This document shows, piece by piece, positions 15,860-26,324 of a stretch of 64,000 nt of DNA. The stretch is from Sanghuangporus weigelae. Its lineage: Eukaryota > Basidiomycota > Agaricomycetes > Hymenochaetales > Hymenochaetaceae. The stretch lies in NCBI GenBank assembly GCA_033182465.1, contig CP137322.1, forward strand, positions 1,984,001 to 2,048,000, given 5' to 3'. Every line of letters starts with the position of its first letter. The stretch's first letter is position 1. The notes beneath the pieces were generated by a model that did no database searches, had not been told where the DNA came from, and saw only the letters and a program-made list of their open reading frames with translations. Both the position numbers and the translations under genes were made by a program.

Positions 15860-18459
15860 ATGGATGCCTGTCATACCAAACAATACTCTGATGTTTGTGT
15901 GCAAACGTCGCCAATTCGTTCTGCCACCTGCGATTCGAAAACCGTGATCACAACTCCAATTCCTAGTCGTCTGAAACGCGTCGCCTATGTGGATCAAGCA
16001 GCTTCTGGATCTTGCTATGATGACTCTCACTCTCGTCGTGTTTATCCGAGAACCCCTATAAGCCGTTCGAAAACTCAGCTGCCACTCAATCTTCCGAAGC
16101 AAGTGCTCAGTCCATCTATTACTCTCGAAGAACAACGTAGAGTAGTTTCTCTTCCAGAACAACTCAACGCCGAACTACTGTCCCAGAAGCTAGCGAAATC
16201 TCTGGTCGTGTGTCCTCGAAATGTTTCAATGCCTGCCGTCATCCAACACTTCCCTCAAACAGAACTGGCTTACGAAGAATCACCTTCAGTGCATGTGTCT
16301 CCTTCCGTCTCGTACGAAGATCACTCTGATCCTCAAAATTATGCTCAAGCAAGCGATTTCCCGCATACTCCTTCGTTTGATTCGTCCTCTACTTCCATAG
16401 AGATCATAGATGACAGTCTTCATTTCTCGGTCCCGGAAACCTTCCTTCAAGCGCATTATAGCCGAGAAAAAGACCTGCATAAAGGTACGTATTCCATCTT
16501 GCCCGCCAAAGCACCTGATGTCAATCGCTAAATGCCTTTCAGACTGGCTCACTTGGAACAGCTCCCCGCCTCGTCCGATCCCTGCATTACATGGCCCTTC
16601 TTCTCTTCCCTACGCTCGCTGTCCTTCGTGAGTAACTGACTCCTTGCATCAGCTGCCACTGACGACCGCGTAGAGGAGCTGAAGGGACCATTATCGAACA
16701 ACCGTCGAATGTCCCTGGCTTGATCTGGGGCTTGAAAGATTCGGCGGCGCTGAAGGCTGTGCTGGAAAGGAGTACGGTCGAACATACGTCCAAAGGCACA
16801 CCTTCAGTCTCAGTTGCAACCCAAGACCATTCAAAAACGCATGGGCGCAACTCTTGTAGCAGCAACGCTCACTGTGCGCAGGAACAATCTATCACGAATG
16901 CAAGACAGGATCTGGAGCTGTCGAGAACAGAGAACTACGTGCCTCATCCTGAGCGACCAGCATATTCACGCCCTACTCCGTGCGAAGGCTCACCTCCAGA
17001 ACAGCGTGAACCAGTGAAGCATGTGCCTTCGAATGAGGAGTTCGAGACTTGCAGCCCACACTCTCCTGATAATTCCGGCGGTAGCCCTCAGACGAATGAT
17101 CGAGCCATCGTAGATTCCGTAAAGATGGGAAACCAATGTGAACAATCTTCCGATACTTTCACGCAACGGCGAATCAGCGAAATGCCTTGCTCTTTACCTC
17201 GTATACTTCTTCATGAGGATGGGCAAAATGGAAATCCTGTCTATCTGGACGAATCACCCCGAGGTCTTATCTTCGCGCGTGAACCACTTTTGCGATCCAA
17301 CATAACGAATGGACCTTCCAAACTGCGGCTCCAAACAAAGACGATGGCTCAGATATCTGAATTCGATGAGAGAGACACCGACATGTGTTCTCCTTTCCGA
17401 CGTTGCATATGCTTGCAAAATATGCCACTTACTCCTCCGGACTCTACGTCACCTCTCTGGTCATCTGGGTTTTCATCGTTGGTGGTAGATGAGCCTTTAG
17501 CCCTCCTTCACGAAGGCATTGCCCGGCCACCTGTCTCACAACTACGTGGTTTGAATTTACGTACATCAGAGGGACCAGCTGGAAGTGATGAAAGCCTCTC
17601 TGACCAACTCAAACGACTCATTCTCCGGGAGCAGATTGGCTCAGATCATGGGTGTGACCCCACTCCTCATCCAACTCAGGAACGAGCAGGCCAGCAGCAC
17701 CATTTTGCTTCGTCTATAATGTTTAATATGCTTTCATCAAAACCGGAAATGCCAATTAATCTGCACGATTTGGTCACTCAACATGCACATGGACATTTTG
17801 CAGCGGAAACAGGGGTTACCAAATACGCAAGCGCTCCTCAACTGACGCTCACGAAACCCGATTCCACAGCAACACACCAGAAGTCGTACCCTGCCGGAAA
17901 TGGCGATGGTGTTGACCTACTGCCATCCTACCGGGAGAATCGAATGGGACGCGGAGACGTTCTCTCCGGAATGTGCCACCCGAAATCCATTCCGCTAACT
18001 CGTTTACTCGAAAGAAAACTCGCACCAGTGCCCGAGGAGACAAGTTTCGTCAGTTCAGGATCGGAGGGATCAGTGCCGAAAACCCGTGCTTCGCTTCCTC
18101 CTATGTTAACCTCAGGTCAAACCGAGAAAGACTATGACTTTTCAGAACTCCGCTTGCCACTTAAGGAAAATCCGGTGGAAGAAATGCTCACATCCGAACA
18201 TGAAGAGCTTAATCAATCAATAAAAGAGCGTAGGATCCTACAACCCGTAAGGCAAAGGAAGCGCTATATCAAACACAAAGAGTCTACGGATGCTAAATCG
18301 ACTCGTTCGAGGACAACGGATCGCAGAAATGAGCGAAACGACGAAAATGTCCATGTTATTGTGCCTCCCTCAGCTCCGAGGAAGAGGTCAAAGGCCAATA
18401 AATCCAACGCATCTTCCGAACGGAGCTTTGGCTCTCAGAAACCTCGTTGCGACAAATGA
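15860..18459 (+). CDS. Large disordered hypothetical protein
   Basis: Three exons: 15860-16484, 16543-16627, 16674-18459; 831 aa. I do not recognise it. The composition is Ser/Pro/Thr/Glu-rich throughout, with many S/T-P sites and short conserved-looking islands such as SDQLKRLILREQIG and INLHDLVTQHAHGHFA. The C-terminal 90 residues are strongly basic (QRKRYIKHKE, APRKRSKANKS), resembling a nuclear localisation signal. No catalytic domain, zinc motif or membrane segment is visible. The first ATG in the open frame is at 15860. Intron 16628-16673 is only 46 nt but joins phases perfectly. A regulatory or scaffold role is possible but unproven. Confidence 0.72.
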
Positions 18460-21345: not shown

Positions 21346-22051
21346 TCACTCATCTTCCGGTCCAGGCCTACCAGGTTTCGTCCAAAACTGCGCAGCGCCC
21401 TCCAAAGGCTGCACCCATTTCAACCTATCCTTCACATGAAACTCCAAAGCCGGCGGATCTTCAATCTTCTCCTTCACTTGCTCCTCCCCACTATCCGCTC
21501 CTCGAACTTTATAATCCAACGCGCTATAGAACACCGCCGCCATACCTTCCCCGGCCTGTTCAGAGTAAGCCGAGATAGATCCGGTGTCGGGACGATACGA
21601 AACGAACAAGTGCGATCCGCAGGTCTTGCAGAAATGTCGGTACCCGATGTTCCCTGAGGTCTGCGCGGCGTCGCGATACACTTCACGCTTCTCCTCGCCC
21701 TTCGTAAATCTTATTGCCTGCAAGGGAATACACGTCGGAAAAGACACATCAGCGATAGCGTTCAACTCGTAAGTGACGAAAGAGATGGAGAGGCATCGAC
21801 TATTTTTTGTTTTGTTCGGAATGTCAAGGTACCGCATCTCGGAACACCAAGTTCGGCTGGAACGCGCAACCCGTCTGCTTGCGACAGTTGAAGCAATGGC
21901 AGCGAGTAATCCTAATATAACCAACGATAAGATGTTTGCTATCTTGTTCGGATTTGCAACGGAGGACTACTTACACGCTTGGTTCCCCTTTTATCTCGAA
22001 TTGTATCCCCTCGCAAAGGCAGGATCCAAAGTACGTCGTTGTCTGTAACAT
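21346..22051 (-). CDS. GFA domain zinc-binding protein (CENP-V/GFA family)
   Basis: Three exons (minus): 22051-21975, 21911-21833, 21717-21346; 175 aa. Zinc ligands: Cys11 and Cys13 (GSCLCEG), Cys30/Cys32/Cys35 (CHCFNCRKQTGCAF) and Cys82/Cys85 (FCKTCGSHLF). The final residues include WVQPLEGAAQFW, also typical. Length fits the family. GFA proteins are named for glutathione-dependent formaldehyde-activating enzyme, but most members have no proven activity, so no reaction is assigned. The gene forms a two-gene unit with the secreted-protein gene at 22306-22989 on the same strand; that unit is repeated about 2.7-2.8 kb further right, where the GFA copy is broken. Confidence 0.9.
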
Positions 22052-22305
22052 TCTATGAGCGAGGTATGTCTGATAATTTCGTCGCCTTCTGACATACGCT
22101 TAATGAGTTGCTTTATACACCAATGAACAACGTCTTATCATGCAACCTTAGTAATGTTGATAACCTATCGGATGTGCTTACATTAAACGATCTTCCGGGG
22201 AACAAGCATATAATGCACATAGATTCTCAATCGAAGGAACTGCTACAGCCACCAGAGAAAGAAGAAAGAGGACGACGAAACTCTATGGGATACGGGCGAA
22301 ACAAA

Positions 22306-22989
22306 TCAACTTCCTCCAGTGGTGGCATATCTATTATTCAAAGCCTCAATGTCGAGTACCGGTGCCACTAATACCATCCCAGTGGGATCTGCGTGAGCGA
22401 CTTCTAAACCTTGAATAACGGCAATTGTCGGGGCCTCTTGGCGCTTGATGGGAAGGACGAGAGCAGCCCCATTTACCGCCGTAGCTACAGAGCTGGTAGC
22501 CGTAGATGTCTGTGTGGCGGTCGTTATCGTGGTAGTTGTAGTCGTCTCCGTGATGATTGAGGTCACTGTAGACGTCGTGGTGGTCACATCTCCCGAGGAA
22601 GTCGAGTTGCTCGAGCCCTATCGAGTATAATCAGTATACTTGCCCTTTATTGCATGCTAACAGTAAGTCCACGAACTATACCGGGAAGGATGCTTGGGAT
22701 GCCTGGGATACCAGCGCGTGGAACGTGCGGCTGTATGAGGTGTTCGACAAATGTCAGTTATATTCTTCGGCTGACACTGATGAATATATTACAGTGTGAC
22801 TTACAGTAGCCGCAGTGACAACATTGACGGCACTAGGTTTGCTGGGCTACCAATGGATACATATACATGAGTACGCGTAAGCGACACGAAGTACAAGAGA
22901 GCAGAGCTTACCGGGGGAGCTGCGAGTGCAGGAAGGCCAGTCTGGAGGAGTGCAAAGACGCAGGCAGCGAAGATGTAGTAGGATCGCAT
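22306..22989 (-). CDS. Small secreted Thr-rich protein with Kex2-like site, paralog 1
   Basis: Exons (minus): 22989-22912, 22846-22805, 22730-22662, 22617-22306; 166 aa, phase 0 at every junction. A classical signal peptide starts MRSYYIFAACVFALL and probably ends at LAA-PP. A short Pro/Gly/Ile segment (PHVPRAGIPGIPSILPG) is followed by a Thr/Ser-rich stretch likely to be O-glycosylated, then LPIKRQ with Lys121-Arg122, and a 44-residue C-terminal part (QEAPTIAVIQGLEVAHADP...). There are no cysteines after the signal peptide. Function unknown. It is paralogous to the gene at 25054-25658: same four-exon layout, same KR-Q site, same tail length. The last intron uses a GTTAGC donor and is 44 nt. 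Confidence 0.72.
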
Positions 22990-24324
22990 GCTGAAGGAGG
23001 TCTGGGTGCGGGTGGCTAGGGAGTAAAGGACTATGTCTTGTGATCTGTTTGAAGGAGTGTATAGGGTAGGTGTGGAGATGGATGAAGGAAAGTGAGGGGA
23101 GTGGCTAGAAGACAAGGAGGGAGTGTGGAAGTAGACGCTAGAGGAAGCGATTGGAGAGAGAACTCCTGTCGTAGGCTGGCGCGTGTTTATAACATTTTGA
23201 GAAACTGTCAGCCTCGTCTTGAACGTTAATCAATTTGCAGATCGACACACAACCAAACCCGGTCTGGCTGACAGCCTTGCTGAGTTTTAGAAAGAAACAG
23301 AGAAGAAAAGAGTCTAAGAAACTGAGCAAAATGAACGAGGAGGGAAGAAGCGCACATGGACACGATACATCGTGGCACACGCAGCAAGGAATGCCCCAGG
23401 GGTATTGCCGTCGCGTTCCATCCGAGAACTCTGAGTATAGGAAACAGAGTTATGCTTATAGATATACGTAGGATCGCCAGGCTCTTCGATTACACTGAGC
23501 TTGGTTACGCATGGTGAATAGAAGATAGGCAAGAAATCCGTTAGAAGACAAGCAGAACTTCAAAAGATGCACAACAAGAGGCGGACACTATAAAGAAGTC
23601 TACATCCACCAGCAGTCATTTTTCAGGCATAATGAGCGTAGGAAGTGCAGAAGAGGATCAGGTAAATCCGAGTCAATGGGGAGTGAACTCAGCACGGACG
23701 AAGAGAAGTACGAAGAAGATTTGTAGTCCGTTCGCCCGTTGGCAGACAATCCTCACCGAAACTCCGACGTCCACAAAGAGAATAAACGCATATATTAAAG
23801 TGTGTGTCAATGCAGAACGTGAGTCGCTTAGTCCATATCCATTTGAGGAGGTGCCAGTGCTCGTTGGAGGTGAGTTTTTAAGTTGTTTAAGATTTGTTCG
23901 AGAGTTTGTTTATGTTTTGTTTGGTAAGTACTACTGTACCTCTCAAAAAGGAATCATCAATCGGGATTTTCCGGTGCCCTTCTAACTTCGGCTCCTCATT
24001 CTTACTCAAACAGAAACCAGCGTACGCCTCCCTGATTATTCTATTCTACGCAAGTTATCCTCCAACTAGATTAACAGACCATTTTATGCGAAGCTCAACA
24101 TCTGCTCCGATTGAATCTCATTTTCTCTCGTCCAGAGCCATTCTGTGACCACTCCGAATAACAACGCGATAAAGAACCTGAAATCGGAGTATCTACATGC
24201 TTTGTTACAAGTTCAGGCTCTTCGAATGTAATAATTGGCGCACGGCTATACTTCCGACTCGTTCGCATGTCTCCCGACTTAAATAGCGCATCTGGAATAA
24301 ACACGCGCCCTCATCACTTTTGTA
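22990..24324. other. Intergenic within the duplicated block
   Basis: This contains the promoter of secreted paralog 1 (conserved block at 23186-23224) and about 1.1 kb of sequence in which I see no supported gene, only short frames. Confidence 0.45.
23186..23224 (-). promoter_or_regulatory. Conserved core-promoter block of secreted paralog 1
   Basis: This 39 nt block is nearly identical to 25834-25872 upstream of paralog 2. Read on the minus strand it has a CAGTTTCTCAAA-type core and ends in a TATA-like GTTATAAA, about 200 nt before the ATG at 22989. The same relative position in both paralogs suggests a kept core promoter. Confidence 0.55.
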
Positions 24325-24840
24325 ATCCTTTATAATCCTCCTGTCCAGGATTTCCCCCCAGAACTGCAGCGCCGCAACCTCAAGAGCATCAAGCGGAGCA
24401 TATTCCTCTTCCTGTTGCTGGCAATAAAGACTACAACAACCGGTGGGTCCTCGATTCTCCTCTATCCCTCCTACAATACCCATCCAGCGAGCTAAAACCA
24501 GGTCGCAACCACTTTCGACGCTTCAAAGCATTTCTAGTGAACTCAGGTCATTAATATTGCAACGCAACCTGCTTCTAGATTTCGCGAATGTTGTTCGAAT
24601 CGCGATGAAAGATAATTCCTCTTATAGGGAGCTTTTTTTCTGGACGAATATCTGAGCGTATCAGATCATGACTAGAAGGTGCATACACCCATACTGTTTC
24701 CGACAGTTTGCAAGCGAAGCAATGGCGGGATGCTATCTTCGCTAACGCCAAGCTGATTTTCCCATTCTGCAACTGGCTCGTATGTCTTCCCCGTCAGCCT
24801 TGAGCGAGACCACATCGAAGTCGAATGCAGTGTGCGCAAT
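24325..24840 (-). pseudogene. Decayed GFA gene copy
   Basis: Two islands match the intact GFA gene. At 24700-24726 the plus-strand string cgacagtt + gaagcaatggc of the intact gene (near 21883-21900) is interrupted by a 7-base insertion tgcaagc, which shifts the frame inside the CHCFNC zinc motif. At 24345-24385 the stretch encoding LEGAAQFW is recognisable as ALEVAALQFWG. The central zinc-site region is shortened and stops are present. Position and orientation relative to secreted paralog 2 match the intact pair. I infer a nonfunctional relic; borders are approximate. Confidence 0.65.
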
Positions 24841-25053
24841 AACTCTTAGTCGGCACATAACAAGTTTCTTCAAGCTACTCCACACGTTTATTACTGGAAG
24901 CAGATCGCTGCCACACAAGGTAGTGTATCACCGAACAAAAAAGCCATTATATGCATCGACACGACCAATATAACTATCACATGCAGCAAGAGAGAAAGGG
25001 ACCACAGAATAGACAAGGAGACAAAAGATGAAGAACTTCGAATCTGAAGGCTC

Positions 25054-25658
25054 CTAGGAGCTATTGATAAGGACGACATTGGCAGACGGCTGCACATTGC
25101 CGCTCGGCTGCGCATTTGCACTAGGCTCAACCACTGGGTCTACATGGACAACAGCAACACCAGAAGTGGGTGCAGCTTCTGTCGCCTGACGCTTGACAGG
25201 AAGGAATGCGGCCACATTTGCAATCGTAGCTCCGGAAGTGGGCGTAATCGTCTCTGTAGACGTCGTGCTCGTTGCGCTTGCATGCGAGCTGCCAGAACCA
25301 CTCGCGGCCTTTTTGAAAGGTTAATTAGCGGAAGAGATTTAGATTGCGTGATACTAGTTGCTCACCGCCCCCAATATGAGATCCAAGGGAAAGACGCGAG
25401 GAGGGTGAGGCTAGAAGAAAGTAACATTTAAAGTCAGTGTATGTGCCCAGGTAGATCAAGGCGAATTCATTACAGCGTGACTTTCGGCAGCCTTAGCAGC
25501 GGCAGTGAAGGTGCCAGGAGCTTGAGGCTTGTAATGATGCGCATCGGTAAAGATTCAAGCGAGGGAAGAGTACCGGAGCTTACTGAGGGCGCTGGAGGAG
25601 CAGCAAGCGCAGGAGCAAGAAGAGCAAGGACACATGCCGCGGCGACGAATGAACGCAT
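25054..25658 (-). CDS. Small secreted protein with Kex2-like site, paralog 2
   Basis: Four exons (minus): 25658-25584, 25527-25474, 25410-25366, 25308-25054; 142 aa, all junctions phase 0 as in paralog 1. The signal peptide is MRSFVAAACVLALLAPALAA. A short segment PHPPRVFPLDLILG corresponds to PHVPRAGIPGIPSILPG of paralog 1. A Ser/Thr-rich stretch, shorter than in paralog 1, leads to FLPVKRQ with Lys97-Arg98, then 44 residues (QATEAAPTSGVAVVHVDP...) containing the repeated motif QPSxNV. The shared parts (signal peptide, KRQ, V-x-H-x-DP) are better conserved than the rest. Secretion and KR processing are predictions; no function is known. Confidence 0.72.
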
Positions 25659-26324
25659 TTTGGCTTGTTTGTAGGAAAAAAGGTGATGTGGTTATAATAG
25701 TGATGTGCGTTGTTCAAAGGAGTGGATAGGGTTGGTCTAGAGGTAGAGAAGGAAGCTGGGGAAGCGAAGAGAGAGGAGTGTGGAAGTGGGAGCGAAAGGA
25801 GCGACTGGGTAGTGCTTTCGCCGGAGGAGGGCTTTTATAACTTTTTGAGAAGCTGTCAGCCTCGTATTGAACATAACTTGAATAATTACTCAACTTGGAT
25901 ATTGGATGGATCGTCGCGCGTCACTCATTGGCTCATGGACTTCAGAACCGGTCCTTCTATCTCCCAAATCACCGGAAGCTATCGTTAAGGCTGACTATTA
26001 ACCATCCATTGAACATACATAAGTAATTTGTTACAAATATATGCGGTGTGATTCATGCTGATCCAATGCAGAGAAATGGTAATTGCAGATCGAGTCGTGA
26101 AGGCGAGTATGGATATTTTAATAACGAGAATCACGCAGGTATCGCAAAAGAGAGTTGTGTAGCGGGAACTCGCGAGATCTAAGAAGAGGGAAGGCAGTTG
26201 GGAAAGGAGATGAATGGGACCTACGAGCAAAGGAAACGCGGTTGTCATTCCCCTCGTCAGCCTATCGGTGAAAAGACGTTACTCACCGGTTAGTGTTCCT
26301 TTGGGAGAAGGGTTGACCATTTGA
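25659..26324. other. Intergenic with promoter of secreted paralog 2
   Basis: The conserved block 25834-25872 lies here. Upstream to 26324 no gene is seen. Confidence 0.45.
25834..25872 (-). promoter_or_regulatory. Conserved core-promoter block of secreted paralog 2
   Basis: Near-identical to 23186-23224, with a TATA-like TTATAAAA on the minus strand about 180 nt upstream of the ATG at 25658. Confidence 0.55.

Follow-up and report, generated by a model that had tools for sequence, protein, structure and literature searches.

A probable old tandem duplication of a secreted-protein gene and a GFA-domain gene in Sanghuangporus weigelae, with one GFA copy reduced to a relic

Two secreted-protein genes of Sanghuangporus weigelae, one followed by an intact GFA-domain gene and the other by a GFA relic, probably derive from a two-gene unit that was duplicated in tandem long ago, after which the surplus GFA gene decayed into a pseudogene and the secreted-protein genes stayed open and diverged; we put the probability of this reading at about 0.8. 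The locus lies in a stretch of 64,000 nucleotides (C5:1984001-2048000, called the window below) of a genome that was searched over 33,870,148 bases in 13 contigs. A preliminary description of the window had proposed a two-gene unit duplicated in tandem, with one GFA copy decaying, and had placed the parts of the two-unit locus at the correct coordinates, on the correct strand and in the correct order. The proposal itself is borne out by a nucleotide match between the two secreted-protein genes, A and B (E 3e-28), and by a collinear chain of GFA-like pieces in the relic (score 140.6). The genes and promoter blocks of both units are all on the minus strand:

22306..22989, minus strand: secreted-protein gene A, predicted splice model of 161 aa with four exons (22989-22912, 22846-22805, 22730-22677, 22617-22306)
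21346..22051, minus strand: intact GFA-domain gene, 175 aa, three exons (22051-21975, 21911-21833, 21717-21346) separated by introns of 63 and 115 nt; from the gene model, Pfam PF04828 and a C4 paralogue with common exons
23186..23224, minus strand: promoter block of gene A with the TATA-like sequence TTATAAA, from block comparison
25054..25658, minus strand: secreted-protein gene B, predicted splice model of 142 aa with four exons (25658-25584, 25527-25474, 25410-25366, 25308-25054)
25834..25872, minus strand: promoter block of gene B, matching the block of gene A at 36 of 39 positions
24335..24724, minus strand: GFA pseudogene, made up of collinear GFA pieces over three frames, with the centre shortened

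The intact GFA gene lies 254 nt downstream of gene A, and the spacing from gene A to gene B is about 2.65 kb. The offset of 2.65-2.83 kb claimed for the repeated unit holds for the promoter blocks (2648 nt) and the zinc motifs (about 2.83 kb), but the C-terminal pieces of GFA are offset by about 3.0 kb. The locus is flanked on one side by an MmgE/PrpD gene (Pfam PF03972, E 1.4e-55) and on the opposite side by a gene with a sub-cut-off DUF1771 match, followed by Slu7 (E 9.4e-103). A search for RNA families between positions 18000 and 30000 gave no matches, a tandem-repeat search returned no rows, and nothing in a plasmid collection matched.

The splice models of genes A and B are predictions that draw on the homology of the two genes and on the reading frame rather than on transcripts. 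Both genes have three introns of phase 0 in matching places, and their exons differ in length by 3, 12, 9 and 57 nt, each divisible by three. For intron 3 of gene A (22676-22618) the frame needs an atypical donor, GTTCGT, and use of the nearby GTATAG donor would lead to a frameshift. The secreted proteins start with a hydrophobic, signal-like N-terminus ending in ALAAPP, as read by eye; in both this is followed by a Pro-rich part, a Ser/Thr-rich part, a dibasic site (LPIKR/Q in protein A, LPVKR/Q in protein B) and a tail of 44 residues. Each protein has one such dibasic (Kex2-type) site, with LP[IV]KRQ common to both. No Pfam family above its cut-off was found for gene A, and gene B matched nothing in Pfam up to E 10. 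A match of gene A to New_glue was rejected, as it had an E value of 6e-4 but only 20 bits against a cut-off of 31, lay on the Ser/Thr-rich part and was put down to composition.

Comparison of the two halves by BLASTN gave a match of 62% over 512 nt (E 3e-28; 22715-23224 against 25395-25872), which runs from the promoter block as far as exon 3. Within exon 4 a further 92 nt matched (E 7e-6). For the proteins beyond exon 1, neither the local nor the global score was reached by any of 1000 shuffles, so the pair is homologous outside the signal peptide, a point on which the preliminary description had made its reading depend. Exon 4 is significant by itself (0 of 500 shuffles). The scores of exon 2 and exon 3 were reached by 25 and 92 of 500 shuffles, respectively, and these short exons therefore prove nothing by themselves. 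The likeness of the tails past the KR site, taken alone, is weak, with the local score reached by 19 and the global score by 31 of 1000 shuffles. The 39-nt promoter block, with its 36 identical positions, is the best conserved part of the duplication among the stretches measured. A 29-position pattern of this block, allowing up to three mismatches, occurs at two places in the genome, both in the window, and the reversed pattern, used as a control, at none. The BLASTN match stops at the block, and no likeness is seen in the 150 nt above it, where 109 of 300 shuffles do as well.

In the sequence of the intact GFA gene one can read the cysteine motifs GSCLC, CHCFNC and CKTC, which form the pattern CxC, CxCxxC, CxxC and whose cysteines are presumably the zinc ligands. 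The final 175-aa model matches PF04828 with 78.3 bits against a curated cut-off of 24.3 (E 6e-22), a provisional model having given 69.5 bits, and solved relatives were found by phmmer (PDB 8ajq, E 2.2e-7; 1x6m, E 0.0038). In its motifs and its Pfam match the gene thus resembles the GFA / CENP-V family, although activation of formaldehyde by its product does not follow from the Pfam match. A Pfam search of the genome found GFA exons at three other places, on C4, C6 and C13; as this search ran exon by exon, it missed the intron-split GFA gene of the window, and the GFA counts are therefore lower bounds. A protein search of the genome gave a close paralogue at C4:398215 (48% identity over residues 53-170), which shares the exons of the intact gene, and a weak match at C6 (E 0.22).

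In the relic, the zinc end is represented by HCFACK for HCFNCR (24724-24707) and NCRKQYGC for NCRKQTGC (24708-24685), and the later part by RIEDPP... (24458-24408), ALQFW (24372-24358) and GNPGQED (24355-24335); the relic may extend to about 24880. The 7-base insertion reported for its zinc motif was found as seven extra bases between CATTGCTTC and AACTGTCG, and because these separate the first two pieces, the pieces overlap in the query. The centre is indeed shortened, GFA residues 42-135 (94 codons and the 115-nt intron, about 397 nt) corresponding to about 226 nt. The first Cys of CxCxxC is replaced by Arg and the insertion breaks the frame; of the pieces, the final three, which belong to one exon in the intact gene, sit in three different frames, and over 549 nt the three frames of the relic contain 8, 5 and 9 stop codons. 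Unlike members of the GFA family, the relic has no open frame with the zinc motifs, and no second CxxC was found in it. The relic is dead as a GFA protein.

Whether this stretch derives from a GFA gene at all was judged on a collinear protein-level chain of GFA against the relic. Its score of 140.6 was reached by none of 1000 dinucleotide shuffles (mean 68.7, maximum 113.8) and by none of 378 real pieces (mean 72.2, maximum 122.8), which were 756 nt each, half-overlapping and from both strands, 306 from the window and 72 from three other genome regions. A smaller first control run (150 and 150) had the same outcome, and the reversed GFA protein scores only 70 on the relic. At the protein level the relic therefore aligns to the intact GFA gene beyond chance, and a chance resemblance is scarcely credible to us. 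Speaking for chance, the BLASTN match of the intact GFA gene to the relic region that the preliminary description had looked to did not appear, even at word size 7 and E<=10, and a loose-gap Smith-Waterman score was marginal, being reached by 2 of 300 shuffles and by none of 98 window pieces; this last comparison was dropped as uninformative, since it aligned nearly everything. Long wrong-strand stretches also come near the score of the relic (137.6 and 127.9 for 8 kb opposite the C6 and C13 GFA, and 121.4 for 1.4 kb opposite the C4 GFA), so that the result is valid for pieces of equal length and a site fixed in advance, and does not extend to a multi-kilobase search. The chain includes two noise-level pieces (scores 20 and 22). 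When the zinc and tail segments were shuffled separately, the score was reached in 0 of 300 shuffles for each, which is optimistic given that the segments were picked after the alignment.

Alternatively, the tandem duplication could have comprised the secreted-protein gene and its promoter only, the relic being a separate GFA copy that lies behind gene B by chance. In agreement with this, the spacer between the secreted-protein gene and GFA is not clearly alike in the two units (24 of 300 shuffles), and GFA exon 1 is not detectable in the relic, where 220 of 300 shuffles score as high. Since the spacer, exon 1 and the 150 nt above the promoter block are all unlike, the case for a single event involving the complete unit is built on order, strand and spacing. 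However, order and strand are equal and spacing is similar in both units, and the relic is nearer to the adjacent GFA gene than to the C4 paralogue, which scores 96.2 on the relic, within noise, against the 140.6 of the window gene; this is what descent from the local unit predicts. We consider a separate GFA copy unlikely. In the tandem duplication of the whole unit, which we prefer, an ancestral unit of promoter, secreted-protein gene and GFA gene would have been duplicated long ago, as homology, order, strand and spacing suggest. The GFA gene behind gene B lost its function: its zinc motif took up a 7-nt insertion, its frame changed at other points too and its central part was lost; a single GFA gene was probably sufficient. 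The suggestion of the preliminary description that GFA is needed only once, or not at all, is an inference. Both secreted-protein genes kept open frames, and the promoter core, the intron phase and the one Kex2-type site are conserved. One partner dead and the other open after a tandem duplication is ordinary genome evolution.

The claim that the secreted-protein gene beside the relic stays open was confirmed, as its frame is stop-free and its introns match those of gene A in place and phase. Neutral copies simulated at the observed identity (52%, 130 codons) were stop-free in 100 of 5000 cases. A DNA-guided alignment of the two coding sequences stays in frame over 330 of its 416 columns, the shuffled mean being 35% and the maximum 58%. 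Retention of the secreted-protein genes is supported by the open frames, the matching intron places and phase and the frame-keeping alignment. Selection on the residues of the proteins is likely and weakly shown. By the method of Nei and Gojobori (NG86), dN is 0.59, dS 1.76 and dN/dS 0.33, and by YN00 the values are 0.72, 1.12 and 0.64, dS being above 1 by both methods and too high for trust. In the protein-guided alignment the first, second and third codon positions are identical in 77, 77 and 48 of 130 codons, a contrast equalled in 60 of 500 codon-shuffled controls; the DNA-guided alignment gives 69, 73 and 60 of 110. The preliminary suggestion that selection keeps the secreted product thus stands as far as frames, introns and frame-keeping alignment are concerned, and at the level of residues only weakly.

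GFA adjoins the secreted-protein gene in both units, the intact one and the one with the relic, and this could mean that GFA and the secreted protein act together, GFA for example handling a peptide-linked reactive compound and one GFA serving both peptides. A title describing a GFA and secreted-protein unit was absent from the literature matches listed. The unit DNA, searched against the genome, matched itself alone. A translated comparison of the unit with the 8-kb regions around the C4, C6 and C13 GFA (E<=0.1) gave matches at C4 alone, namely to the exons of GFA, to the antisense shadow of these exons and to a single arginine-rich stretch (E 0.007, not credited), and no relatives of the secreted-protein genes in any of the three regions. 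The neighbours of the C4 GFA are WD40 frames (E 1e-11 and 3e-9) and an open frame with a weak, below-cut-off F-box-like match (E 0.003), so that at least one GFA gene of this genome lacks a partner of this kind. In addition, the N-terminus of the GFA protein is not signal-like, as judged by eye, and the products of the two partners would therefore occupy different compartments. Both the setting of the C4 gene, together with the lack of secreted relatives at C4, C6 and C13, and the separate compartments argue against joint action, which we regard as decidedly unlikely. Protein searches of the genome with provisional and final models of the secreted proteins gave, outside the window, just two matches on C7 with E values of 0.92 and 0.24. 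The final models of A and B do not find each other at E<=1 (a provisional B query reached A, E 0.22), so this absence is weak and equally diverged relatives would be missed.

As both genes are open and the promoter core, intron phase and Kex2-type site are conserved, both probably still make a precursor. Proteins A and B would then be secreted, Ser/Thr-rich precursors, each with a single Kex2 cut that may free a 44-residue C-terminal peptide. The freed peptides would have diverged between the copies, either by relaxed constraint or by adaptation. In their signal-like N-terminus and KR site the proteins resemble Kex2-processed repeat proteins (KEPs), from which they differ in having one dibasic site each and no repeats that we could see. 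One published KEP screen requires at least three tandem repeats of at least 8 aa each between Kex2 sites (PMC7329392); with one site per protein nothing lies between two sites, and A and B do not have repeats of the kind described there. The single dibasic site and the 44-residue tail behind it suggest single-cut peptide precursors outside the repeat-based class. No particular difference was seen from orphan-type fungal small secreted proteins, for which a size limit of under 300 aa is given (PMC7105643): both proteins are below 300 aa, with a signal-like N-terminus and no Pfam family over cut-off, and two copies were found in the genome, where diverged ones would be missed. It is highly unlikely that A and B encode signalling or defence peptides of an undescribed single-cut family that have diverged, the duplication having allowed one peptide a new role while the promoter core stayed the same, with GFA as an accessory enzyme required once per locus.

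The locus offers a clean small example of what can follow the duplication of a gene pair, with one partner lost and the other kept open, and the orphan secreted pair is the part of it that may merit further attention. If the secreted-protein genes are peptide precursors, they would be of a non-repeat kind that is overlooked by repeat-based screens, such as the one in PMC7329392.
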